IMG/VR virus record: IMGVR_UViG_3300046491_000064
Location: 1 to 40,059 of that record
Length of the DNA: 40,059 nucleotides
Strand: one strand, 5' to 3'
From: a virus
In this document: positions 3,655 through 33,657 of the stretch, piece after piece
Layout of the letters: each line of letters opens with the position of its first letter
Position numbering within the stretch: position 1 is the stretch's first letter
Position numbers and translations under genes: made by a program
The notes under the pieces: model-generated
The model's input: only the letters and a program-made list of their open reading frames with translations
What the model was told of the DNA's origin: nothing
Database searches by the model: none

Positions 3655-4020
3655 ATGAAAGCTTCTGAGATTATACGTGGTGCCTTATCGTCTCACTATG
3701 TCAATAAGGAAAAATACAACGGGGGCAATCAAAGCGAGTATATGTGCTTTGCTATAAAGGGTTTCATGCTGGACGTGCTAGGTTACCAGTTCCACACGGA
3801 CGAATACCACACGGCACATGATGCGGTTTGCGATACATTCATGCCAGAGCTTCACAACTGGGGCACCGGCTGTCTTATGGTGATGTTGAATCGTTCAAAC
3901 AAACGTTACGCCAGTTTGTGCAGACGTGCGAAGCTTGGGCATGACACGCCGGGCTGCTTTAAAATCCGTGTTCAATATTGGTTAGATCACATCGCTGAAC
4001 TTGAATCAAAAGGCTTGTAA
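3655..4020 (+). CDS. hypothetical phage protein
   Basis: A 121-residue protein with AGGAAC upstream of ATG 3655. It contains several aromatic, Cys- and His-rich stretches (YMCFAIKGFMLDVLGYQFH, YHTAHDAVCDTFMP, NWGTGCLMVMLNR, YASLCRRAKLGHDTPGCFKIRVQYWLDHI). The spread of Cys and His could bind a metal, but no standard finger spacing is visible. Its family was not recognised. It is the only gene of its transcript before the next promoter. Confidence 0.75.
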   Translation: MKASEIIRGALSSHYVNKEKYNGGNQSEYMCFAIKGFMLDVLGYQFHTDEYHTAHDAVCDTFMPELHNWGTGCLMVMLNRSNKRYASLCRRAKLGHDTPGCFKIRVQYWLDHIAELESKGL

Positions 4021-4043
4021 CGCTAATCGTCCGATGTTAAACT
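4015..4043 (+). promoter_or_regulatory. probable promoter overlapping the end of the previous gene
   Basis: TTGTAA, 17 bases, TAAACT. A small inverted repeat ATCG/CGAT (4026-4035) lies in the spacer. It serves 4070-4599. Confidence 0.5.
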
Positions 4044-4069
4044 AACCGTATCAACTTTGAGGTAGTGCC

Positions 4070-4330
4070 ATGATAACCATTACTAGTCTGATGAATCCGA
4101 CCATGATGCAAAAGATTCGTTATGGTCTTCGTTGTGCTGCCTTGAAACAAGGTCATTTGCTAGGCGGTCATGATAACCGGGTTTATATCGCTAATCGCAA
4201 AGGTCATAACATCTTGCGTATTGACTGGCGAGAAGGCAAGTGGGTTGCCTATGGCGGTGCTGACTGGGGGCAAACAGAAGTAACGGACATTATTAAACAG
4301 GCTGTTAAACGATTCTACGGGGTGATGTAA
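4070..4330 (+). CDS. hypothetical protein
   Basis: An 86-residue basic protein (MITITSLMNPTMMQKIRYGLRCAALKQG...RVYIANRKGHNILRIDWREGKWVAYGG...TEVTDIIKQAVKRF). It looks like an alpha/beta domain with a strand pair around YIANRKGHNILRIDW. The ribosome binding site GAGG precedes ATG 4070. Its last base is shared with the next start (TAATG), so it is coupled to 4330. Confidence 0.8.
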   Translation: MITITSLMNPTMMQKIRYGLRCAALKQGHLLGGHDNRVYIANRKGHNILRIDWREGKWVAYGGADWGQTEVTDIIKQAVKRFYGVM

Positions 4331-4599
4331 TGAATGGACCAACAGTGTTTGATGAACACGAACTAATCATGGCAACTAAAGTCGCCCGCGTTCGACTACT
4401 TGAACAAGGGTATATCACGACAGCGGTTGCAGAAGCTGGACGCGATAAGTTCGAAACAATGCGACGGCTTGACAAAAACAAGATTGAAGAATTTACTGTC
4501 ATACACTGGCGCTGGCATGATACACTCGGCTGGTTTCCTTTCTTGATTGATGGGAAACGTGTTGCAGGCGACGGGCTGCCATTCATCAAAGAAGATTGA
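4330..4599 (+). CDS. hypothetical protein
   Basis: An 89-residue protein whose ATG overlaps the preceding stop. The N-terminal two thirds are helical and charged (FDEHELIMATKVARVRLLEQGY, VAEAGRDKFETMRRLDKNKIEEF), with a strand-rich end (TVIHWRWHDTLGWFPFLIDGKRV). I recognise no family. It ends the two-gene unit begun at 4070. Confidence 0.75.
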   Translation: MNGPTVFDEHELIMATKVARVRLLEQGYITTAVAEAGRDKFETMRRLDKNKIEEFTVIHWRWHDTLGWFPFLIDGKRVAGDGLPFIKED

Positions 4600-4608
4600 A
4601 AATAAAGC

Positions 4609-4636
4609 TTGCATCAATGGTTGATTGGTGTAAAAT
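4609..4636 (+). promoter_or_regulatory. Class B promoter with spacer inverted repeat
   Basis: TTGCAT, 16 bases, TAAAAT. ATCAA (4613-4617) and TTGAT (4621-4625) form a 5-bp inverted repeat with a 3-base loop. Confidence 0.7.
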
Positions 4637-4684
4637 GAACCACATGAAAGGGCATAAAGCCCAATCGACCAAGGAGTTTTCTAA

Positions 4685-5068
4685 ATGGGTATCTGGAAAC
4701 CAACTCAAGCGGAATGCGACATGATTAAAGGTGCTGCCGCTCGTGCTGCCGGGACCAAGGCTATCAAGCTTGAACCCGGTATCCGTGGCGGTGATTCTGC
4801 CGACAATGTGTCTATGAACATCGCTCGCGTCACTGTCTGCGAAGATTGGTCAGAAGACACTGAGCTAGAAGACTTCGGAACATGGTCTGAATTCCGTAAA
4901 GGTGTTGAACTGACAGAAGATGGTCGGGCAATTGTTGACTTTTATGTACATGACAGGGTAGAGCTTAACACCAATGTTGTCGTCTACTATCAAGGAGGTC
5001 AGATTGTTGAAGTGTGCAACACGTCAGGCACGAACCTTTTGCACAACGGTCTGAACTACATTTTCTAA
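4685..5068 (+). CDS. acidic hypothetical protein
   Basis: A 127-residue protein with AAGGAG before ATG 4685. The N-terminus is helical and Ala-rich (MGIWKPTQAECDMIKGAAARAAGTKAIKLEPG). The middle is acidic (VCEDWSEDTELEDFGTWSEF) and the C-terminus is strand-rich (VVVYYQGGQIVEVCN). No signal or membrane segment is seen, and the family is not recognised. It is alone between two promoters, which is usual in this region. Confidence 0.8.
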   Translation: MGIWKPTQAECDMIKGAAARAAGTKAIKLEPGIRGGDSADNVSMNIARVTVCEDWSEDTELEDFGTWSEFRKGVELTEDGRAIVDFYVHDRVELNTNVVVYYQGGQIVEVCNTSGTNLLHNGLNYIF

Positions 5069-5075
5069 ATAAAGC

Positions 5076-5104
5076 TTGCAGGGGCTGAAAAGCCCCTGTA
5101 CAAT
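5076..5104 (+). promoter_or_regulatory. Class B promoter with a strong hairpin as its spacer
   Basis: TTGCAG, 17 bases, TACAAT. CAGGGGCT (5079-5086), GAAA, AGCCCCTG (5091-5098) is a perfect 8-bp stem with a GNRA loop that fills the space between the boxes. No T run follows, so it is not a standard terminator. Confidence 0.75.
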
Positions 5105-5135
5105 GCACAGACAGACAACGAAAGGAGTTATCTAA

Positions 5136-5225
5136 ATGAATCTTGTAGACTGGTTGGCTATCACTTGTACTGCTTTCATTTTCGTTTTGTTGTTTGTTCA
5201 ATGGCTTGACAAATCCAGCAAATAA
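5136..5225 (+). CDS. single-span membrane peptide, 29 residues
   Basis: ATG 5136 has a good AAAGGAG at 5121-5127. The product has one hydrophobic span (WLAITCTAFIFVLLFVQWL) and a short charged tail (DKSSK), as expected for a small inner-membrane peptide with its C-terminus in the cytoplasm. It begins a four-gene run to 5745. Confidence 0.7.
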   Translation: MNLVDWLAITCTAFIFVLLFVQWLDKSSK

Positions 5226-5234
5226 GGGTTTACC

Positions 5235-5486
5235 ATGATTCTTGCAACTGTTCTAACCTTGTGTGCTTCTGCACTTCCTTGTAACGATTATATCATTGAT
5301 ACTGCAACTAACAGCCGCGATGCATCTATTAACTTAGTTGCCCATAGTCAAGAGTTCAAACGTGTTTGGACTGATGGAAAGTTGCTTAGCGAAACACTGG
5401 CGTTATATAACATTGTTGAAGAAATTACAGAAGTTCAAACTTACGAACTTAACACGCGGTCAATCGATGAGGATGACATGCCATGA
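5235..5486 (+). CDS. small exported or membrane-anchored protein
   Basis: An 83-residue protein with a signal-like N-terminus (MILATVLTLCASALPCNDY) followed by a soluble domain ending in EITEVQTYELNTRSIDEDDMP. The hydrophobic start and the two Cys suggest export or membrane anchoring, but there is no clear lipobox. A similar small signal-bearing protein occurs in other phages by my recollection. Coupled to 5483 by ATGA. Confidence 0.75.
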   Translation: MILATVLTLCASALPCNDYIIDTATNSRDASINLVAHSQEFKRVWTDGKLLSETLALYNIVEEITEVQTYELNTRSIDEDDMP

Positions 5487-20016: not shown

Positions 20017-20227
20017 GAGTCACCAAGTATTCGAAGTCTTTGTCGAAGAGTGCTGTCGTATACGAATACTCGCATTCTGCAACAGGTACTTTACGAATAT
20101 AGCCATTGTCAGGACCATGCTTACCTGAGATGTAACCTGAGAAACCTTCAACGTGAATGATGTCACCTTGTTTGTTGTGGAATGTCAGTGACGCATCACC
20201 ATAAATCTTAGTTACAATTACCCGCAT
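20009..20227 (-). CDS. hypothetical protein
   Basis: A 72-residue, strand-rich protein (MRVIVTKIYGDASLTFHNKQGDIIHVEGFSGYISGKHGPDNGYIRKVPVAECEYSYTTALFDKDFEYLV). GAGGTG precedes the start inside the deaminase gene. A small beta-barrel is likely. No family recognised. Confidence 0.75.
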   Translation of the reverse strand: MRVIVTKIYGDASLTFHNKQGDIIHVEGFSGYISGKHGPDNGYIRKVPVAECEYSYTTALFDKDFEYLVTHD

Positions 20228-20651
20228 TGTTCACCTCGTATTGTTCAACGTGAATGCCTTTTCGGCGTAGGAAATCAATACCATCAGTCATTCGGTATTG
20301 TTCGTCATAGAATACAGCACTTACACCTGCTTGGTAAAGCAATTTCGCACAAGGGAGACAAGGACTTAGTGTCAATACAACATTGCTGCATTTAAGGCTT
20401 ACACCTTCTCGTGCTGCCTTTGCTACCAAGTTGCTTTCACAGTGAAGCACTTCTGGATGAGTGATAAGCTCACCATTGATTTCGATTTCACATTCGTTAT
20501 CGTCTTGTGCTGGTCTGCCGTTCCATGAATACACCATTACATCTTGAGGGGTAATTGCTACCCCTCCCACTTTCTTGCGAACTGCACGAGAAAGCTTTGA
20601 GAATGCATATGCCGATTCCATGTACGGTTTCAACATCTTATGTCTGATCAT
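20208..20651 (-). CDS. dCMP/cytidine deaminase-family protein
   Basis: A 147-residue zinc deaminase. H70-C-E72 (LHCESNLVAKAAREG) supplies the first zinc ligand and catalytic Glu, and P97-C98-x-x-C101 (SPCLPCAKLLYQAGV) the other two ligands. The N-terminal helix is followed by VGGVAITPQDVMVYSWNGRPAQDDNECE, typical of dCMP deaminases, which convert dCMP to dUMP for thymidylate synthesis. Editing of another nucleotide is possible. Start overlaps the upstream stop (TAATG). Confidence 0.9.
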   Translation of the reverse strand: MIRHKMLKPYMESAYAFSKLSRAVRKKVGGVAITPQDVMVYSWNGRPAQDDNECEIEINGELITHPEVLHCESNLVAKAAREGVSLKCSNVVLTLSPCLPCAKLLYQAGVSAVFYDEQYRMTDGIDFLRRKGIHVEQYEVNNAGNCN

Positions 20652-22496: not shown

Positions 22497-22780
22497 TTTA
22501 AGTCTCCTAGTGCAGATTCAACACATTCAGTCCAGTGACCGCCACCATTATAGTGATAGGTCTCGAAGTCAATGCTTCCATCGTCATTCAGTTTTACACG
22601 CTGGAAACCGTAAAGCTGTTCTCTTTTGTTCTGCCATTCAACTTGATAGATTTCACCGTCAATAGATACGAGTCCGTTATCATGCAGAAGATCATCTAGT
22701 TCATCCGGGTTCTCACTGTAAATCTCTGGATCGATACCTGTAGGGATAAGACGACCTCGATTGTATTCCATATCACTCAC
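22493..22780 (-). CDS. hypothetical protein, GTG start
   Basis: A 95-residue protein. GTG at 22780 lies nine bases after GGAGG, while the first ATG (22771) would be 18 bases away, so the GTG is chosen. It overlaps the HD hydrolase stop (GTGA). Sequence: a Pro/Gly/acidic first part (RGRLIPTGIDPEIYSENPDELDDLLHDNG) then strands (SIDGEIYQVEWQNKREQLYGFQRVKLND). No family recognised. Confidence 0.78.
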   Translation of the reverse strand: MSDMEYNRGRLIPTGIDPEIYSENPDELDDLLHDNGLVSIDGEIYQVEWQNKREQLYGFQRVKLNDDGSIDFETYHYNGGGHWTECVESALGDLK

Positions 22781-23253
22781 TTCTTGAACCCTCCGAGTAA
22801 TTGAATTTGTTTGGTGTATTTATTGATACGCTTGATGTTCATATCTTTCAGACTATTCGAAAGATTGGCGGCAGTATCGCAAAGCTTAACCTTCAAGGCA
22901 AGAGGATTAGCCTTAACCGCTTCGATGTAATCTTTGTAACTCTGACCTTCGTGTTTTGTGATTGCCTTGACAGCATCAACAACATCGACACAAATACCGA
23001 GTTCAGTAAGTGTATCACAGGTGCAGTCTGTATCTTCAATGATATCATGCAGGAAAGCGATAGCACGAAGGCAGTCAACCTCGTCACCGGGTTCTTTGCT
23101 GAACTGCTCAGATGGTAATTTAACATTGGCATACATATGTACAACATTGCGGTCAACTTCAATCAGATGGACCAAATATGAAACATCACCGTACATTTGG
23201 CCTTCATGATAGACAATGGCAAGCTCAAGAGCGATTGGTAGTTGTTCATTCAT
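22777..23253 (-). CDS. SpoT/MESH1-type HD hydrolase
   Basis: A 158-residue HD-domain protein. Family motifs in order: LAIVYHEGQMYGD...YLVHL (first His ligands, H16 and H29), FLHDIIEDT with H69-D70 and E73-D74, and KVKLCDTAANL with D126 and N130. This is the layout of stand-alone small alarmone hydrolases that remove pyrophosphate from (p)ppGpp using Mn2+; animal MESH1 also dephosphorylates NADPH. There is no synthetase domain. It would lower alarmone in the infected cell, or remove a defence-derived nucleotide. AAGGAG precedes the start. Confidence 0.88.
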   Translation of the reverse strand: MNEQLPIALELAIVYHEGQMYGDVSYLVHLIEVDRNVVHMYANVKLPSEQFSKEPGDEVDCLRAIAFLHDIIEDTDCTCDTLTELGICVDVVDAVKAITKHEGQSYKDYIEAVKANPLALKVKLCDTAANLSNSLKDMNIKRINKYTKQIQLLGGFKK

Positions 23254-23771: not shown

Positions 23772-23793
23772 GAAAACCCCGCCGAAGCGGGGT
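23772..23793 (-). terminator. Rho-independent terminator with UUCG loop
   Basis: Minus strand ACCCCGC, TTCG, GCGGGGT then TTTCTATTG. It ends the first leftward transcription unit just after the NAMPT-like gene. Confidence 0.9.
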
Positions 23794-23798
23794 CATGT

Positions 23799-25607
23799 TC
23801 ACAGTCGAGAACGAATCTCATCCATCGTAGTCAAGTTGTAGAACACACCGTCTTTGAAACGTGTTTTCAACTCTCCAAGCTTTTCAGCTTGATAAGCTAC
23901 ATCGTCTCCTAGAATATACTCGCCAGTTGTGGCCGAGCGGCTTACTTGCAACAGACCTTTAGCAGATTTCTTCTTGCTGTCAGTCTTCGGGTCTTTGAAG
24001 ATTGCAATCCCAACACCATTTACTTCAGTGTAAGTTGCTTTAACCGCAAAGCCAAATGAGTCGCGTGTCACACACTGGTAAGTGTAGGAGCCGACGCCGA
24101 ACACTACGTTACCAGATGCAAACCCTTGCTCTTCCAGACGCTTCAGGATCGACAGGCATCGACGTGTGGTAATCGAGTCACCATAGATCAACCCAATGTG
24201 CGAATCAAGCAGTCTGTGACCAGTTTCGGTAACAGTGCCGCCGAACTCTTCCCACAATACTTGCACAGCACCTTTCTGTTCAGCTGTAAGATCAGCTTCT
24301 TCAAAGACGGTAATTTTACGACCATCAATATAGTAGAACTGTTTGTCGTGACGATTCCACTCTACAGAACAAACTGCACGATACACTTTACCTTCAACAC
24401 GGAAATATGCTTCATACTCGCTGTCACCCATTTCACCATGTTCATTCTGTTGCTCAATTATGTCATAGAATGAATCTTCTACCCAGTCACGCGCCTGATC
24501 AATAGTGCAATCAAGGTTGATAATGTCAACAGTGCCACAGATCACTTGCAGTGGATCACCAGAGTCAGGACGAATAACCAATTTACCCGGTACAACACCA
24601 TTGCTTTCACGACGCATGATAACGTCTTTCATGTATGGCAGGCCACGGCTAATCATTCCGTAGAAGTCAAAGCTGTCAGTTACATACGAAAGAATACCTG
24701 TTGGAAACTTGGAGTTCAATTCGTACAGAAACATCACTTCTGCGATCAGTCGAACATCTTCATCAGCTTTCGCCATCTTGGTGTATATTGCACGCTGCTC
24801 TTCATTCTGGAAGACGTATTCTTGAAACATAAGTTCACGTTCAATACGAAGAATGTTACTTGTTGCAACGGCGTGCTCTGTTGCTGGAACCGAACAGGCT
24901 ACAAAGTCAGGAGCACCATAGTATTCCTGTGCGTACAGAATTGCACCAAGACTATCCGTACCCAAGTGACCAGCTGCAATGTGACCGAAACCAGTCCGTG
25001 CAGCATCTTCAGGACCGGACATACCACGAGCACTAAAGTCGTGAACTTGGAATGCAGTTCCTTCAATTGGGCTACCGGTTTTAACCGCATAGTCATTGAT
25101 CATCGCTTTGTATTCGGTAGCGATAGTTGCGGCAGTGCTTGTTTTCCAAGTCAAGTTGCTGATGGTTGTTTCAAGGAAGTTCACCAGCCAGTAAGCGTGC
25201 TTCACAGTGTTCTTGATAGTCAGTACCGGAACACCCATTGGAACTTTGCTACCTTCGTCAAGGGTTTTAATCTCAAGCGGCAGGTAACCAAGATCGTGCA
25301 ATGCTGCAAGATTGTCAGTGCTGATTGCATCACGACCAAGATAGTTATCACAAAGCATCTTGAATCGAGCGATAGCAATGAACTTCTCGGTATCAAAGAA
25401 CTTTTTCCAGTTCTCTACCATTTCGATCAATGCACCTTGGACACCAACCAATACCAGCTTACCGTCATAGTAAGAAGTTGCAGAACCACGATAGATACGA
25501 TCAGAACGTGGTGTAAGGTTGCTATAGACCAGATCAGTGCCTTCAGCATACATTGCTGCGTGGGCCAGCTTATAACCGTCGCTGTTAAACGGGGCAAAAA
25601 GATTCAT
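23799..25607 (-). CDS. nadV: nicotinamide phosphoribosyltransferase-like enzyme (NAMPT/NadV or Namat)
   Basis: A 602-residue homologue of NAMPT. Visible signatures: VHDFSARG at 188-195, SVPATEHAVATS with the catalytic His near 245, IRPDSGDP at 345-352 with the catalytic Asp, IYGDSITT at 474-481, and FGVGSYTYQCVTRDSFGFAVKAT at 503-525. Canonical NAMPT joins nicotinamide and PRPP to make NMN. In NARP1 phages, proteins annotated this way (Namat) instead use ADP-ribose pyrophosphate and make NAD+ directly. Between the PDSG and GDSIT motifs is an insert of some 75-90 residues relative to the 491-residue human enzyme. Next to a Prs-like gene; last before the terminator. Confidence 0.95.
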   Translation of the reverse strand: MNLFAPFNSDGYKLAHAAMYAEGTDLVYSNLTPRSDRIYRGSATSYYDGKLVLVGVQGALIEMVENWKKFFDTEKFIAIARFKMLCDNYLGRDAISTDNLAALHDLGYLPLEIKTLDEGSKVPMGVPVLTIKNTVKHAYWLVNFLETTISNLTWKTSTAATIATEYKAMINDYAVKTGSPIEGTAFQVHDFSARGMSGPEDAARTGFGHIAAGHLGTDSLGAILYAQEYYGAPDFVACSVPATEHAVATSNILRIERELMFQEYVFQNEEQRAIYTKMAKADEDVRLIAEVMFLYELNSKFPTGILSYVTDSFDFYGMISRGLPYMKDVIMRRESNGVVPGKLVIRPDSGDPLQVICGTVDIINLDCTIDQARDWVEDSFYDIIEQQNEHGEMGDSEYEAYFRVEGKVYRAVCSVEWNRHDKQFYYIDGRKITVFEEADLTAEQKGAVQVLWEEFGGTVTETGHRLLDSHIGLIYGDSITTRRCLSILKRLEEQGFASGNVVFGVGSYTYQCVTRDSFGFAVKATYTEVNGVGIAIFKDPKTDSKKKSAKGLLQVSRSATTGEYILGDDVAYQAEKLGELKTRFKDGVFYNLTTMDEIRSRL

Positions 25608-25783
25608 TAAGTATTCTCCCTTACAATATCCAAAAGTGTGATAGCCAGTTCTGATGCATCTTCAAGGCAAACTGTGATCTTACGAACATTATCACCATAA
25701 CCCTCTTTGATTACAAGAACATTCACTGCTCCACCGATGAATCCTACACTGATAGATTCATCACCAGCAAGTTGTTTAATCAT
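25607..25783 (-). CDS. hypothetical protein between NAMPT-like and Prs-like genes
   Basis: A 58-residue protein coupled on both sides: ATGA with the Prs-like gene and TAATG with the NAMPT-like gene. Product: MIKQLAGDESISVGFIGGAVNVLVIKEGYGDNVRKITVCLEDASELAITLLDIVRENT, two to four strands then a helix. Its position suggests a helper of the NAD+ pathway, but no family is recognised. Confidence 0.75.
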   Translation of the reverse strand: MIKQLAGDESISVGFIGGAVNVLVIKEGYGDNVRKITVCLEDASELAITLLDIVRENT

Positions 25784-26628
25784 CGTTTAATCACCACCAC
25801 CTTACTGTTGTTTTTGTCGCTATTAAAGAAGTCCGTAGTATACACGGTATCAAAGGGTTTTGCAACAACATCAACACCTTGTGTGAACAGACCGTGAGTC
25901 ACAGCCAAATCAAGTTGAGCAACCACAGTGTTTTCTTCAATCACTTTGGCAACTTCAATAAATGTGCGTCCACCATCACAAATGTCATCCAGCACCAACA
26001 GTTTGCAAAAGCTTGTTGGAATCTCATCGAGCAACCGAAGTTGAACTGTATCACCAACGCGGTGTTTCATGCAAGTAATAACACCAGCGGCACCAGTACG
26101 TTCTGCAAATGCTTCACACTTCTTTGTTGCTCCTTGGTCTGGTGCAACAATGTATACATCGTGGAAGCTCGTATAAATCTGACCAAAGATAGCATACTGA
26201 TCTACTACATGCAGATTGTTAATGCAAGCGTCAGCAACACTGCTATGTGGATCGAATACAACAACAGAATCGAAACCCATGCTGTTAATCAGGTTACCGA
26301 ATACTTTCAGGCTGTGACCCTCACCAACCTTACAAATCCGATCCTGACGTGCATATGGCAGGTAAGGAATGTTCAGAGTGAAGTTTGCATATACAAAGTG
26401 GCGACGAAGTGCGTCCATAGTTTGCATGAGAGCAATAATCTGATCACTCATGTTCACATCTTTACCACGTTGATCTTTCATCTCACCGAAGTGAATGTTG
26501 ACCTCAACTTCTTGTCGGCAAAAGTCAAGTCGAGCATCACCAGTGTTAATATTCACACCAACCCCACCGTCTGGAAACTTCCAGACGTTAACATGAGTGG
26601 TTTTAAAACCAAGTGTGTAACTGATCAT
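25780..26628 (-). CDS. prs: ribose-phosphate pyrophosphokinase-like enzyme (Prs or Adps)
   Basis: A 282-residue protein from ATG 26628, which has GGAG seven bases upstream. Motifs: LNIPYLPYARQDR at 85-97 (ATP site), FDPHSS at 125-130 with the catalytic His, VAPDQGATKK at 161-170, and the PRPP loop LVLDDICDGGRT at 211-222. Length is slightly below typical Prs (about 315). Normal Prs transfers pyrophosphate from ATP to ribose 5-phosphate. The NARP1 enzyme Adps has the same fold but acts on ADP-ribose. Being directly coupled with the NAMPT-like gene makes either pathway possible. Confidence 0.94.
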   Translation of the reverse strand: MISYTLGFKTTHVNVWKFPDGGVGVNINTGDARLDFCRQEVEVNIHFGEMKDQRGKDVNMSDQIIALMQTMDALRRHFVYANFTLNIPYLPYARQDRICKVGEGHSLKVFGNLINSMGFDSVVVFDPHSSVADACINNLHVVDQYAIFGQIYTSFHDVYIVAPDQGATKKCEAFAERTGAAGVITCMKHRVGDTVQLRLLDEIPTSFCKLLVLDDICDGGRTFIEVAKVIEENTVVAQLDLAVTHGLFTQGVDVVAKPFDTVYTTDFFNSDKNNSKVVVIKR

Positions 26629-26819
26629 TGAAGTTCTCCTTTCCATGGTGCGATATCATCTTCATCGAGATACCAGAAATCAGTCTTATCAAGATTCCAA
26701 GCAGCCTCTACTTTGTTATCATCGTCAAACTTTTTGATGATAACTTTCTGACCGATATAGAAGCTATGCCCGCACGTATTATCAACAACTTCAACAATTT
26801 GACCTAATTCGTATTGCAT
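26625..26819 (-). CDS. small KOW/SH3-like protein
   Basis: A 64-residue protein from ATG 26819, with AAGGAG upstream; the longer frame to 26855 overlaps the kinase gene. Sequence: MQYELGQIVEVVDNTCGHSFYIGQKVIIKKFDDDNKVEAAWNLDKTDFWYLDEDDIAPW. The 'G..V.V.D...GH.F..G..V.I......' pattern is a typical one-domain SH3-like barrel of phages. Function unknown. Coupled to the Prs-like gene by ATGA. Confidence 0.82.
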   Translation of the reverse strand: MQYELGQIVEVVDNTCGHSFYIGQKVIIKKFDDDNKVEAAWNLDKTDFWYLDEDDIAPWKGELQ

Positions 26820-26829
26820 TCTATTCTCC

Positions 26830-27708
26830 TTAGAATTCGATATATGGATCAGCAACAGCGATGACGTTTGGAATCTTCAGTTCATGCCAAAGGCGAATCA
26901 TCTGAGGACGGTCATCTACAGCTGCGACTACGTTATACTCATTTGCGATGTTTGTCCAGAAGATTTCTTCTTTAACTTCATTATCTTTCCTGAAGTCACC
27001 AGCCTGACGCATGTACAGGTGCTTGTAAAACCACCCACCAACATGCTCATCAAGCCATTCTTTTGTTTCGCCACAGCAAGCATCAGAGCGACCAGAGCAT
27101 ACGATGATAGTGTAACCTGACATCGCATAGTTTTGCAACATCTGGATAATCACTTTGCGTGGTTTATCTTCACCTACACGCGCCCAATCGAACGGACCAC
27201 GATCACCCATTTCAGCGATAGTACCATCAACATCAAAGATGATAGCCTTCGGCTTGCTTTCGTCACCAATATAAGTGCGACGACCAAGGAAGTCAAGCAT
27301 TTTCAGGTTCTGACGATAAATAACTGATTCACCGACACCATTTTCACGCAGGTTGTCACGCTTAATTGCAAGTTCACGAGTGATGTTAAACACTTCGACA
27401 CTTACTTCATAACCAAGTGCTTCCAGATGACGAATGAGACCAGCACGAGTGCTAGTGTTCAAGTTGGTATCAGAGATAACAATGTTTTCGCTTTTGAAGC
27501 ATGATTCCATGATCATCTGACCTTGGATGCCGGTTACTTCTTTTTCGTTTGCTTTGCTGAACTTGTATGTAGACCAGTTTGCACCGGGTTTAACGATATT
27601 AAAGCGAATCCAATCACGGTTGATATCACGATACCCTTGTGCTACAAGCTCTTTTGCATATGAAGTTTTGCCGCTGGCACTGATGCCGACTGTAATTACT
27701 GCACGCAT
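26830..27708 (-). CDS. pseT: polynucleotide 5'-kinase/3'-phosphatase
   Basis: A 292-residue homologue of T4 PseT. The N-terminal kinase has the P-loop GISASGKTS at 8-16 and an R-rich lid region (SVIYRQNLKML). The C-terminal HAD phosphatase has FDVDGTIAEM at 158-167, VCSGRSD (motif II region) and AAVDDRPQMIRLW (acidic motif). It repairs 5'-OH and 2',3'-cyclic phosphate ends left by anticodon nucleases, preparing them for RNA ligase. The RNA ligase gene lies two genes upstream, completing the pathway. Confidence 0.94.
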   Translation of the reverse strand: MRAVITVGISASGKTSYAKELVAQGYRDINRDWIRFNIVKPGANWSTYKFSKANEKEVTGIQGQMIMESCFKSENIVISDTNLNTSTRAGLIRHLEALGYEVSVEVFNITRELAIKRDNLRENGVGESVIYRQNLKMLDFLGRRTYIGDESKPKAIIFDVDGTIAEMGDRGPFDWARVGEDKPRKVIIQMLQNYAMSGYTIIVCSGRSDACCGETKEWLDEHVGGWFYKHLYMRQAGDFRKDNEVKEEIFWTNIANEYNVVAAVDDRPQMIRLWHELKIPNVIAVADPYIEF

Positions 27709-28118
27709 TATTTTACTCCCTCTAAGTAGTCTTTGTATTTTGTAATCATTGCTGCCATTTCATTGTCAACAAGAACGGTTTCATCAATCTCACAGCGATC
27801 ATACAATGCTTTGATTGGTTTGATCTTACTTTCCCATGTACATGACCACCAATCAATTTCGTCACATTCCTCAGTTGTCAATACTTCATGAAGAATATCG
27901 GTCCAGTGCCCGAATGTTGACAAACGTGAACGTGCAAATTGGGTAACTGTCTTTTTGCGATGCCACCACTTTGTGAAAGCACTACCATTCAGATAATGCT
28001 TTTCATAATACAGTTTGATACCTTTGTCACGAAGCTCTTTTGCCACATCGTATCTGACTTCAAACCCGATAATCGCAGCAAGAAGATCAGATCGACTTAC
28101 ATTTACATAGCCTTTCAA
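27708..28118 (-). CDS. hypothetical protein between RNA repair genes
   Basis: A 136-residue protein, Trp- and charge-rich (MKGYVNVSRSDLLAAIIGFEVRYDVAKELRD, FTKWWHRKKTVTQFARSRLSTFGHW, CDEIDWWSCTWESKIKPIKALYDRCEIDETVL). No recognised domain. Coupled to both the RNA ligase (ATGA) and the kinase (overlapping start), so it may assist RNA repair. Inference from position only. Confidence 0.78.
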   Translation of the reverse strand: MKGYVNVSRSDLLAAIIGFEVRYDVAKELRDKGIKLYYEKHYLNGSAFTKWWHRKKTVTQFARSRLSTFGHWTDILHEVLTTEECDEIDWWSCTWESKIKPIKALYDRCEIDETVLVDNEMAAMITKYKDYLEGVK

Positions 28119-29224
28119 AGAAAGTTCTCCATTTGTTCTAGTCGATAAGCAAGACGTTGACCGTCAAATGCTTTGAGTGGGTCCATTTTACCAGCACGAG
28201 CTTTGAACAAGCAAGCACTGAAATGATGTTTTGTAGCTTCTGCTGCAAATGATTTCTGATCTTCAATACGATAAATTCGGTTGTATACATTAACGATATC
28301 ATTAATCAAGCTTACATATGCATCTAGAAACGGCTGAAGAATCCTTTCGTCTTCAGGGAAATAGGTCAGGTATTCTGACACCTCACCTGAAAGAACCAGT
28401 TCACAACTACGCTTATGATTCAAGCCTTCACCACGAATATGATGAACTGCCACGTAAGCTGGACTCTTAACTTTGCATATAGGAATGCCATTTTGGTATA
28501 CAACATAACCTTCGTCAAGGTCTTTCAGCGAACGAGATGCTTCCTGACATGCTTCTGGTGTATCAAACTTGTATACTTTAGGATTAGAAATACGGTCTTT
28601 CATGCCGGATACTTCACCAAACAACCATTCACGTTCAAGTTCAGAATGATACTCGTAAGTACGGTTATCACGAGCGGCAAGGAAATGAAGTTTGTAACCA
28701 TCATAATGCTTGACAACACGGTTTTCAACAGATGTCAGTTCGAAGATGTAAGTCATATGGTGCATCATCAAAGAGCGAGTCATCAGCGATTGGAAATCAC
28801 CATCGTTTTCTACACCAAGTGCATTGTATACAAGTTCACGGAAAGTGATACCCCAGTCACCACAAGGCACGTCAGCAAAAGCTGTACCGCGCGTTGCAAT
28901 CTCCCAACGATTGTTGTAGTTGTAAATCTTAATCAGGCTACCATCAACCTTATCGAAAACCTCTGCTTTGCTCCAATCGATTGCTGGCATTGTATCCAGT
29001 GCTTCACCGAGATTGAAGAATCGGTCAAATGAACGAGAAACAACACGAAGAGTTTCTTGCTCAAGAATAAGACCACGACATTCCATAACAATTGGATGTG
29101 TCTTTGGGCTTTCAATCTGGCAATAGTTAAGAACCATCAATCGCCCTTCCAAACGAACTTTGATGCCGAACTCTTCTTTCAGTGCTTCGATACCGTTGCT
29201 GCGAATATAATCAACTACTAGCAT
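28115..29224 (-). CDS. rnlA: RNA ligase 1 (T4 RnlA family)
   Basis: A 369-residue protein from ATG 29224, which has GAGGA upstream; the frame continues to 29269 without a ribosome binding site. ECRGLIL (residue 49 on), EVFDKVDGSLIKIY with the adenylated Lys92 (T4 Lys99), EGYVVY (motif IV) and CKVKSPAYV (motif V) fit the Rnl1 nucleotidyltransferase core, followed by the helical C-terminal domain that recognises tRNA anticodon breaks in T4. Length matches T4 RnlA (374). Role: rejoin tRNA cut by host anticodon nuclease. Confidence 0.95.
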   Translation of the reverse strand: MLVVDYIRSNGIEALKEEFGIKVRLEGRLMVLNYCQIESPKTHPIVMECRGLILEQETLRVVSRSFDRFFNLGEALDTMPAIDWSKAEVFDKVDGSLIKIYNYNNRWEIATRGTAFADVPCGDWGITFRELVYNALGVENDGDFQSLMTRSLMMHHMTYIFELTSVENRVVKHYDGYKLHFLAARDNRTYEYHSELEREWLFGEVSGMKDRISNPKVYKFDTPEACQEASRSLKDLDEGYVVYQNGIPICKVKSPAYVAVHHIRGEGLNHKRSCELVLSGEVSEYLTYFPEDERILQPFLDAYVSLINDIVNVYNRIYRIEDQKSFAAEATKHHFSACLFKARAGKMDPLKAFDGQRLAYRLEQMENFL

Positions 29225-29234
29225 TTTGTTTTCC

Positions 29235-29423
29235 TCAGAATATTGGATTGACATGTGTTTCGTTGCCACAACTTGGGCACTTTATAGTAGCTGACAAGTC
29301 GCGATCACCTGTGTAATCGCTTGCGAATTCAATCTTCATGTCGTTGAACTCGTATTCAAGCACACATCGACATTTGTTGCAAGTGCATTGTTTTGTTTCT
29401 GGTGCAGATACTACGCGAACCAT
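29235..29423 (-). CDS. small zinc-ribbon protein
   Basis: A 62-residue protein with AAGGAG. CTCNKC near residue 14 and CPSCG near 49 make a four-Cys ribbon, with strands between (VLEYEFNDMKIEF). Often such proteins bind nucleic acid or partner a polymerase. It lies upstream of the RNA ligase. Function unknown. Confidence 0.78.
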   Translation of the reverse strand: MVRVVSAPETKQCTCNKCRCVLEYEFNDMKIEFASDYTGDRDLSATIKCPSCGNETHVNPIF

Positions 29424-32009: not shown

Positions 32010-32087
32010 ATCTCGTGGTTGTTATGGCAAATGCATGTGGGTCTCCAAAACCTTACGGACGTGGTTCGATTCCACGGCGGGATGCCA
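32010..32087 (+). tRNA. tRNA-Trp (CCA)
   Basis: A 78-base cloverleaf with encoded CCA: acceptor ATCTCGT/GCGGGAT, anticodon loop CTCCAAA, T arm CGTGG-TTCGATT-CCACG, discriminator G as for Trp. The D stem is weak (TGT/GCA) and the anticodon stem has one mismatch and one wobble pair. It is the least canonical tRNA of the cluster, and could be impaired. Confidence 0.78.
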
Positions 32088-32128
32088 AATTCCAGACGCT
32101 GACTGGTTTAACAACAGTGGCCTATTCA

Positions 32129-32205
32129 GTTCTTATAGCTCAATTGGACAGAGCACCAGCCTTCTAAGTTGGTGGTTGCTGGTTCGAGTCCAGCTAGGAA
32201 CACCA
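32129..32205 (+). tRNA. tRNA-Arg (UCU)
   Basis: Acceptor GTTCTTA/TAGGAAC, D arm GCTC...GAGC, anticodon loop CTTCTAA, T arm CTGG-TTCGAGT-CCAG, CCA encoded. Reads AGA, a rare codon in many gammaproteobacteria. Confidence 0.93.
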
Positions 32206-32213
32206 AACAAAAT

Positions 32214-32289
32214 ACCCGTGTAACTCAGTTGGTAGAGTAGCTGGCTGTTAACCAGTTTGTCGGAGGTTCGAGTCCTCCCGTGGGTGCCA
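32214..32289 (+). tRNA. tRNA-Asn (GUU)
   Basis: Acceptor ACCCGTG/CGTGGGT, anticodon loop CTGTTAA, T arm GGAGG-TTCGAGT-CCTCC, discriminator G and encoded CCA. Confidence 0.94.
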
Positions 32290-32319
32290 ATTTAATAGTG
32301 AGAGAAAGGAGCAAGAAAG

Positions 32320-32454
32320 ATGTCTAAGTTTTATGATGCAACTAAGGAACACAAACCATTTGATCGTACTGCACAAGGTGCTGCTGTTAAAGGTCGTCAC
32401 CCTAACAAGAACGTTCGTGGTAAGAATCCTTACTCTGGTAAGGTTGTTTCCTAA
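32320..32454 (+). CDS. basic 44-residue protein inside the tRNA cluster
   Basis: ATG 32320 has AAAGGAG at 32306-32312. Product: MSKFYDATKEHKPFDRTAQGAAVKGRHPNKNVRGKNPYSGKVVS, strongly basic and probably unfolded alone. It lies between tRNA-Asn and tRNA-Asp in the same transcript and could bind RNA. I recall no family. The good ribosome binding site makes it likely real. Confidence 0.72.
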   Translation: MSKFYDATKEHKPFDRTAQGAAVKGRHPNKNVRGKNPYSGKVVS

Positions 32455-32461
32455 ATAATAT

Positions 32462-32536
32462 AGTTCTGTAGTATAGTGGTTATTACGCTGGCTTGTCACG
32501 CCAGTAACGAGGGTTCAATTCCCTTCAGGACTGCCA
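32462..32536 (+). tRNA. tRNA-Asp (GUC)
   Basis: Acceptor AGTTCTG/CAGGACT, anticodon loop TTGTCAC in a CTGGC/GCCAG stem, T arm with one G-T wobble, CCA encoded. Starts 8 bases after the small basic gene. Confidence 0.9.
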
Positions 32537-32575
32537 AATGATGTCTGTCCCGGACGTTAAACGGGTAAGAATTAA

Positions 32576-32661
32576 GGATGTAGTAGAGATACCGGGTAAG
32601 TATCAGGGCGCTGTAAACGCTCCGCCTTTGGCTAGTGGTTCGATTCCATCTACATCCACCA
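32576..32661 (+). tRNA. tRNA-Tyr (GUA), class II
   Basis: 86 bases. Acceptor GGATGTA/TACATCC, anticodon loop CTGTAAA, long variable arm with CGCC-TTT-GGC, T arm with TTCGATT and encoded CCA. Confidence 0.9.
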
Positions 32662-32683
32662 ATTATAGGATGGTAGTGAAGTG

Positions 32684-32761
32684 ATGTTGCTAGGAATACT
32701 GCACTTTATAGTTCTACCTCTTTTGATAGGTATCACAATAGCTATATCCTCAAGAGATTAA
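32684..32761 (+). CDS. possible 25-residue membrane peptide
   Basis: MLLGILHFIVLPLLIGITIAISSRD, a single hydrophobic span, lies between tRNA-Tyr and tRNA-Pro. The ribosome binding site is poor, so it is uncertain. Confidence 0.42.
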   Translation: MLLGILHFIVLPLLIGITIAISSRD

Positions 32762-32773
32762 TATTACAATTAT

Positions 32774-32851
32774 CTAAGCGTAGCGAAAGTCAGGTTATCG
32801 TCCCGGTTTGGAACTGGGTACACGCAGGTTCGAATCCTGCCGCTTAGACCA
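32774..32851 (+). tRNA. tRNA-Pro (UGG)
   Basis: 78 bases. Acceptor CTAAGCG/CGCTTAG, anticodon loop TTTGGAA in a CCCGG/CTGGG stem, T arm GCAGG-TTCGAAT-CCTGC, discriminator A, encoded CCA. Confidence 0.92.
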
Positions 32852-32985
32852 ATTTTACTGAAAAGGTGTGTTGCCTCTGTATGAGATACATATCGTACCA
32901 GCCACGACACACTGAAATGAGAAGAGTAGGTTCATTAGTGGAACAAGGGCTTGACCTGAACTGGCAGTAAACGCGATTTAAAATT

Positions 32986-33061
32986 GCCCTCATAGCTCAG
33001 TTGGTAGAGCGCTTGCCTTGTAAGCAAGATGTCGCGGGTTCGATTCCTGCTGATGGCACCA
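32986..33061 (+). tRNA. tRNA-Thr (UGU)
   Basis: 76 bases, canonical D and anticodon arms (CTTGC-CTTGTAA-GCAAG), T arm GCGGG-TTCGATT-CCTGC and encoded CCA. The acceptor stem GCCCTCA/TGATGGC has a C-U mismatch at pair 4-69. Confidence 0.92.
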
Positions 33062-33064
33062 AAT

Positions 33065-33180
33065 TCAGGTAGAAATGGAGTGTCATTTGCCTCAACCTGA
33101 CCTATGGTCGAAGTAGGAAACCCCCACGGTGTGACTAGCGTGGACTGGGGTAGAACAGGATAAACGTACAGCCTGTTACT
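33065..33180 (+). ncRNA. structured spacer between tRNA-Thr and tRNA-Arg
   Basis: Three helices are visible in order: CAGGT/ACCTG (33066-33100 region), CCACG/CGTGG with flanking CCCC/GGGG (about 33122-33154) and ACAGG/CCTGT (about 33158-33178). It is not a tRNA. May be an RNA of unknown class or a processing element. Confidence 0.35.
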
Positions 33181-33195
33181 AGAATCCAAATTAAT

Positions 33196-33271
33196 ACATG
33201 TGTGGCTCGATTGGATAGGCACTCCCCTACGAAGGGAGTTCAGGCAGGTTCGACCCCTGTCACATGTTCCA
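33196..33271 (+). tRNA. tRNA-Arg (ACG)
   Basis: Acceptor ACATGTG/CACATGT, anticodon loop CTACGAA in CTCCC/GGGAG, T arm GCAGG-TTCGACC-CCTGT, encoded CCA. A34 would require modification to inosine by the host enzyme TadA. Confidence 0.92.
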
Positions 33272-33280
33272 ACGCTGACT

Positions 33281-33329
33281 GTAACCTTTTTAGGTTACTT
33301 TCTCAAATGTAACGTATTTAGGTTACATG
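33281..33329 (+). repeat. twin direct-repeat hairpins
   Basis: TGTAACCTTTTTAGGTTACT and, 28 bases on, TGTAACGTATTTAGGTTACA are direct repeats, and each forms a GTAAC/GTTAC hairpin. They sit between tRNA-Arg(ACG) and tRNA-Cys. The first is followed by TTTCTC and might terminate weakly. Confidence 0.6.
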
Positions 33330-33404
33330 TCCTTCTTGCCTGAGCGGCTAGGGTGCTGATTGCAAACCAGTAATAGATCGGTTCAACTCCGATAGAAGGC
33401 TCCA
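33330..33404 (+). tRNA. tRNA-Cys (GCA)
   Basis: 75 bases. Anticodon loop TTGCAAA, T arm ATCGG-TTCAACT-CCGAT, discriminator T as in Cys tRNAs, encoded CCA. The acceptor has six good pairs; pair 1-72 is T-C. The anticodon stem has one A-C mismatch. Confidence 0.85.
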
Positions 33405-33409
33405 AACAT

Positions 33410-33485
33410 TGGACGTTAGCTAAATGGTTAAAGCATCGGCCTTTTAAGCCGACTACTCTGAGTTCGAATCTCAGGCGTCCGACCA
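33410..33485 (+). tRNA. tRNA-Lys (UUU)
   Basis: Acceptor TGGACGT/GCGTCCG, anticodon loop CTTTTAA in CGGC/GCCG, T arm CTGAG-TTCGAAT-CTCAG, encoded CCA. Lys tRNA is the target of the PrrC-type anticodon nuclease. Confidence 0.93.
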
Positions 33486-33491
33486 AACAAT

Positions 33492-33565
33492 GCGTGTGTA
33501 GTGTAACGGCAACACCTCTGGCTTCCAACCAGATATTGCAGGTTCGAAACCTGTCACCCGCACCA
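33492..33565 (+). tRNA. tRNA-Gly (UCC)
   Basis: Anticodon loop CTTCCAA in TCTGG/CCAGA, T arm GCAGG-TTCGAAA-CCTGT, encoded CCA. The acceptor GCGTGTG/CACCCGC has a U-C mismatch at pair 4-69. Confidence 0.91.
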
Positions 33566-33570
33566 AATAT

Positions 33571-33657
33571 AGCAGATTGGCAGAGCGGATAATGCAGCTG
33601 TCTTGAAAACAGCCGGACCCTCGGGTTCCATCCGTTCAAATCGGATATCTGCTACCA
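33571..33657 (+). tRNA. tRNA-Ser (UGA), class II
   Basis: 87 bases. Acceptor AGCAGAT/ATCTGCT, anticodon loop CTTGAAA in GCTGT/ACAGC, long variable arm with GGACC-CTC-GGGTTCC, encoded CCA. Last tRNA of the cluster. Confidence 0.93.

Follow-up and report, generated by a model that had tools for sequence, protein, structure and literature searches.

A putative NARP1 gene pair with a variant adenine clamp in an uncultured Pseudomonas-type phage

Two enzyme genes of an uncultured virus, encoding a Prs-like and a NAMPT-like protein, very probably form a NARP1 pair (Adps and Namat) and not a classical Prs and NadV pair, with putative enzyme activities. The NARP1 counter-defence pathway was reportedly first described in 2024 (Nature). 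The genes lie in the window, the whole stretch of 40,059 nucleotides that was analysed; it belongs to a virus record of 105,735 bp, and the named relatives closest to this record are Pseudomonas phages. A sequence-only reading of this DNA had offered both NARP1 and the salvage route from PRPP to NMN; NARP1 was favoured by the tree placement, the clamp residues, the linkage to Adps and a search that detected no NMN adenylyltransferase. A divergent, well-supported candidate NARP1 is thereby added from a Pseudomonas-type phage, beside RNA-repair enzymes.

Gene order and operon structure

The features of the locus are listed below in the order of the minus strand.

28115..29269, minus strand: RNA ligase, T4 Rnl1-like (PHROG 562, E 1.7e-56; PF09511), upstream of the pair
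26830..27708, minus strand: polynucleotide kinase/3'-phosphatase, T4 Pnkp-like (PHROG 505, E 7.8e-88; PF25109), upstream of the pair
26625-26855, minus strand: small ORF between the kinase and the Prs-like gene
25780..26628, minus strand: Adps-like (Prs-like) gene, encoding 282 aa when read from its likely start ATG (26628)
25780-26646, minus strand: the same ORF from its first ATG at 26646 (alternative start), 288 aa
25607..25783, minus strand: 58-codon ORF between both enzymes, an orphan with a few-base overlap with each neighbour
23799..25607, minus strand: Namat-like (NAMPT-like) gene, 602 aa (PHROG 448, E 3.5e-172)
23775..23794, minus strand: intrinsic-terminator-like hairpin, 8 bp stem with 6 GC pairs and a T-rich tail, 5 nt past the namat stop

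A 136-codon ORF separates the RNA ligase from the kinase, and the run continues through the small ORF, the Prs-like gene, the 58-codon ORF and the NAMPT-like gene to the hairpin. The adps gene and the 58-codon ORF share an ATGA overlap, the 58-codon ORF and namat share TAATG, and a Shine-Dalgarno-like run, GGGAG, precedes namat. These overlaps and the shared terminator suggest that the Prs-like and NAMPT-like genes are coupled in one operon and co-transcribed. Both genes, their order and the intervening ORF, all proposed from the letters alone, proved real, and the coordinates first given for them were right: the ATG at 26628 is the likely start of adps because relatives align from residue 7 of the 288-aa ORF.

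The 58-residue protein had no detectable homologue in phages or among the fetched loci, and its role as a conserved third component was therefore rejected. In relatives this spot holds small ORFs unrelated to it, other genes spanning up to about 1.5 kb, or no more than 10-50 bp. From these comparisons the ORF is best seen as variable cargo outside the conserved core of the system.

Placement of the two proteins

The Prs-like protein matched PHROG 619 (E 6.2e-75) and contains the Adps-family motifs PYARQDR, PDQGATKK, DDICDGGRTF (substrate loop) and THGLFTQG; the counterparts in E. coli Prs are PDIGGVVR, DDMIDTGGTL and THPIFSG. Against the leave-out Adps HMM, which like that for Namat was built without Pseudomonas phages, it scored 227 bits, versus 60 bits against the classical Prs HMM, and the E. 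coli Prs control scored 138 and 343 bits, respectively. The Adps group stood apart from classical Prs in the tree with moderate support (82/93), and the AlphaFold model of the protein showed a PRPP-synthetase fold (TM up to 0.76). By its sequence, the Prs-like protein is assigned to the Adps type and not to classical PRPP synthetase. PHROG 12872 (547 positions; Shigella phage Ag3 C8XUN4) matches Adps as well as the C-terminal part of Namat, and in some phages it may represent Adps-Namat proteins that are fused or wrongly annotated.

For the NAMPT-like protein, the PHROG 448 match indicates homology far above chance, as the PHROG 619 match does for the Prs-like protein. In a maximum-likelihood tree of 36 proteins it fell inside the Adps-linked Namat clade, alongside SPβL1 Namat, ICP1 NrsB, and Felixounavirus and mycobacteriophage relatives, and this clade was separated from mouse and Xanthomonas (Xcc) NAMPT and from five phage NadVs (KVP40-type) by a branch with 100/100 support. 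Accordingly, the phylogenetic placement proposed in the sequence-only reading put the protein with characterised Namats, in a clade that also holds the NadV of H. ducreyi, and the clustering with classical Prs and NadV that would have spoken for the salvage route was not seen. The protein scored 659 bits against the Namat HMM and 257 bits against the NadV HMM. Its core residues D10, Y12, F191, S192, R194, D218, H245, R346 and D348 are all intact, and equivalents of Asp13, Tyr15, Phe189, Arg192, Asp215, the catalytic His, Arg306 and Asp308 of the SPβL1 core are all present, which bears out, for this protein, the early remark on intact catalytic motifs. The solved structure closest to the AlphaFold monomer model (pLDDT 93.7) was SPβL1 Namat (9w5x/9w5w; VIA Z 43.4, rmsd 1.5, 465 residues), followed by H. 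ducreyi NadV (Z 42.2) and NAMPT (39.2 and below); for this predicted model, the Z gap between SPβL1 Namat and H. ducreyi NadV is small.

H. ducreyi NadV (HdNadV; PDB 9KE8/9KEO) served as a control within the clade. It raises NMN in E. coli and has been used as a PRPP-dependent NAMPT (PMC6095924), and its gene lies at 3828-5315 of plasmid pNAD1, which is without any prs gene. Since an NMN maker lies inside the clade, membership alone is no proof of ADPR-PP use; clade placement fails to separate Namat from NMN-making NadV, but the clamp residues and the Adps neighbour do so, and it is these that carry the NARP1 assignment. HdNadV is without all three clamp residues, having Glu in the loop and Gln and Arg in GAQTYQRNTRD, and may be a Namat that has gone back to making NMN.

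The adenine clamp and its Cys variant

Crystal structures of SPβL1 Namat with nicotinamide (9W5X) and with NAD+ (9W5W) revealed a core held in common with NAMPT and an adenine clamp unique to Namat, formed by Arg40 from one protomer and by Phe392 and Tyr396 from the other (PMC12774641). The latter two sit on a helix motif, GSX-Φ-X-Φ-X-Φ-TRD, in which Φ is "most often aromatic" (PMC12774641). The corresponding features of the window protein, with loop and helix coordinates derived from the ORF, and its insert are as follows.

25491..25514, minus strand: clamp-loop start TPRSDRIY, residues 32-39; R37 aligns with the adenine-stacking Arg40 of SPβL1 Namat
24060..24092, minus strand: clamp-helix motif GSYTYQCVTRD, residues 506-516; Y508 corresponds to Phe392 and C512 to Tyr396 of SPβL1
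24285..24527, minus strand: insert in Namat, residues 361-441, about 80 residues with a helix and beta hairpins, pLDDT about 72-92

Two of the three clamp residues are kept, R37 and Y508, whereas Tyr396 is replaced by Cys512. R37 is a stacking residue of the kind sought in the clamp loop (Arg, or the residue after Lys/Tyr), and the window protein does not read GG(G/A)LLQ at the clamp region as NAMPTs and KVP40-type NadVs do. Helix position 7 was Tyr in 55, Cys in 21, Met in 11, Phe in 8 and another residue in 7 of 102 aligned clade Namats, so that 39 members have neither Tyr nor Phe. Cys at this position was confined to the Pseudomonas-phage group, including all close Pseudomonas-phage relatives of the window, and this group also has a distinctive long clamp loop, mostly [RK]I[YH]R..xT.[FY]YDG. 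In SPβL1 Namat, mutating one clamp residue costs about 1.3-1.7 fold, and certain double mutations far more (PMC12774641); a single replacement of Tyr by Cys would thus be compatible with function. The natural variant found here tests the published selectivity model. The insert is missing from the SPβL1 and ICP1 Namats and is found in many phage Namats, including those of Felixounavirus.

In the proposed mechanism, NAD+ would first be cleaved to ADP-ribose and nicotinamide by the NADase of a host defence (a TIR, SIR2 or SEFIR effector). Adps, the Prs-like enzyme, would then transfer pyrophosphate from ATP onto ADP-ribose to give ADPR-PP, and Namat, the NAMPT-like enzyme, would join ADPR-PP and nicotinamide directly into NAD+, bypassing NMN. 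R37 in the loop of one protomer and Y508 in the helix of the other would clamp the adenine of ADPR-PP, and the longer loop RIYRGSATSYYDG possibly makes up for Cys512 in place of Tyr396. This chemistry and its counter-defence function have been established by others in relatives; by analogy, the window pair would play the same role, and the defences named would be those it meets.

It was also considered that the Pseudomonas-phage clamp was rebuilt (helix Tyr to Cys, with the [RK]I[YH]R loop conserved and lengthened) in a way that alters donor preference, so that PRPP or a modified product of ADP-ribose, for example, would be favoured besides ADPR-PP; this is held to be very unlikely. Equally slim is the chance that a NARP1-derived pair here has a Cys clamp with changed specificity, either a preference for a different donor or a looser selection that admits PRPP; this would be a variant of the NARP1 reading and not fully exclusive of it. 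The restriction of Cys to one phage group with its own loop speaks for such a change, but position 7 varies widely among enzymes that are nearly all linked to Adps, and the cost of single clamp mutations in SPβL1 is small.

Linkage, known relatives and neighbouring genes

In a first locus set, the upstream flank was intact in 27 Namat-clade loci, 20 from named phages and 7 from viral contigs; all of them carried Adps, and one contig starting inside Namat was without it. A survey of 86 viral loci on 83 contigs showed Adps within 5 kb of Namat in 85, the remaining one beginning inside Namat; as viral loci were picked for their likeness to the window protein, these counts measure linkage within the clade. 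An Adps-type gene also lay within 5 kb in 77 of the 80 bacterial loci holding the best 80 relatives of the window Namat, with records from Pseudomonadota, Bacteroidota, Actinomycetota, Cyanobacteria and Verrucomicrobia. NARP1-like operons thus look common in bacteria and not limited to a few genomes, and some of these loci may be prophages. NadV-like motif matches obtained by regular expression in bacterial loci were false ("GGALVPVFRD" near the C-terminus) and were set aside.

The flanks of five NadV-type phages contained no Adps; two of these phages, X1 and LucasX of Xanthomonas, encode an NMN adenylyltransferase nearby. No PF01467 (CTP_transf_like) match was obtained in the 105,735-bp record, which is possibly incomplete, and the host could supply the enzyme; 14 of 14 control genomes were positive.

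The reading of the pair as classical salvage, in which the Prs-like protein makes PRPP from ribose 5-phosphate, the NAMPT-like protein makes NMN and a host NMN adenylyltransferase completes NAD+, appears extremely improbable. It draws on the folds shared with PRPP synthetase and NAMPT, on the generic annotations of both proteins, on the presence of HdNadV as an NMN maker within the same clade, and on the NMN-making activity from PRPP that wild-type Namat keeps in vitro (PMC12774641). However, HdNadV lost every clamp residue and has no prs partner, whereas Arg and Tyr are retained in the window protein; HMM score and substrate loop both set the Prs-like protein far apart from classical Prs; and the NadV-type phages are without an Adps partner, with an NMN adenylyltransferase near in two of them and none found in the record of the window. 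A different purpose, namely a housekeeping NAD+ supply for phage replication instead of counter-defence, is compatible with NARP1 chemistry and is considered unlikely. Other nucleotide-metabolism genes nearby, such as a dCMP deaminase at 20208-20651, and the many bacterial relatives of the pair are in line with it. Against it, NADase defences yield ADP-ribose as a product, ICP1 NrsAB imposes a cost on hosts that do not have the NADase defence (PMC11559045), and the RNA-repair kinase and ligase in the same gene run represent another function that repairs defence damage.

NARP1 of Bacillus phage SPβL1 shares with the window the adjacent Adps and Namat genes, all core residues, the loop Arg, an aromatic residue at helix position 3 and the fold; the window differs in Cys for Tyr396, the longer clamp loop, the 80-residue insert and the 58-codon ORF between the genes. 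ICP1 NrsAB, a counter-defence system in which NrsB increases the NAD+ of infected cells (PMC11559045), is an Adps/Namat pair of the same clade with an NAD+ effect in vivo, but its Namat (497 aa) is without the insert and has Tyr at clamp position 7. Adps and Namat of mycobacteriophage DyoEdafos rebuild NAD+ in vitro together with an RyR-domain enzyme (PMC13232231). NAMPT, KVP40-type NadV and HdNadV have the NAMPT fold and catalytic core in common with the window protein, but their clamp is absent (GG-ALLQ) or lost (GAQTYQR in HdNadV) and they have no Adps partner.

The nearest named relatives are the Pseudomonas phages vB_PpS_SYP and phiPMW (Namat identity of 60% and 59%), whose operons are laid out alike, RNA ligase and kinase included, with three ORFs between Adps and Namat in SYP and one unrelated ORF in phiPMW. 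PAK_P1 (Pakpunavirus) has the same order of RNA ligase, kinase, Adps, small ORF and Namat, the Cys clamp and 54% Namat identity; its small ORF between the genes is unrelated. NARP1 has already been annotated in the Pakpunavirus Adele, and in the related phage PaP1 NAD+ fell during infection despite these genes, according to the Adele paper (PMC12846349). Judged by sequence, the window pair almost certainly remakes NAD+ after its destruction by a bacterial immune system and is a sound addition to the NARP1 systems, which earlier annotation had recognised in related phages. A macro-domain gene is present in Adele as well; no match to such a gene was found in the record of the window (control positive). 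A search for an RyR-domain (RyDEP) partner gave no match, and its control likewise gave none. PADLOC gave zero matches, as expected of a counter-defence system.

RNA ligase and kinase genes were found near NARP1 in 23 and 27 of 113 loci (fetched flanks), respectively, mostly in the Pseudomonas-phage group. The kinase and Rnl1-type ligase of the window (26830-29269) lie upstream on the same strand, an arrangement that recurs in Pseudomonas phages (loci L001, L003, L035, L038 and L040). Phage T4 mends tRNA cut by host nucleases with a polynucleotide kinase and RNA ligase pair. The RNA ligase, the kinase and NARP1 look like a damage-repair set for tRNA and NAD, directed against two kinds of defence and probably on one shared transcript, so that a single gene run may mend both NAD+ and tRNA damage. 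A gene for a metal-dependent phosphohydrolase (22777-23253, PHROG 990) follows immediately downstream of the operon, and 16 of 113 loci have a relative of it close to NARP1. Twelve tRNA genes are clustered at 32010-33657 on the plus strand, which fits a phage with RNA-repair enzymes.
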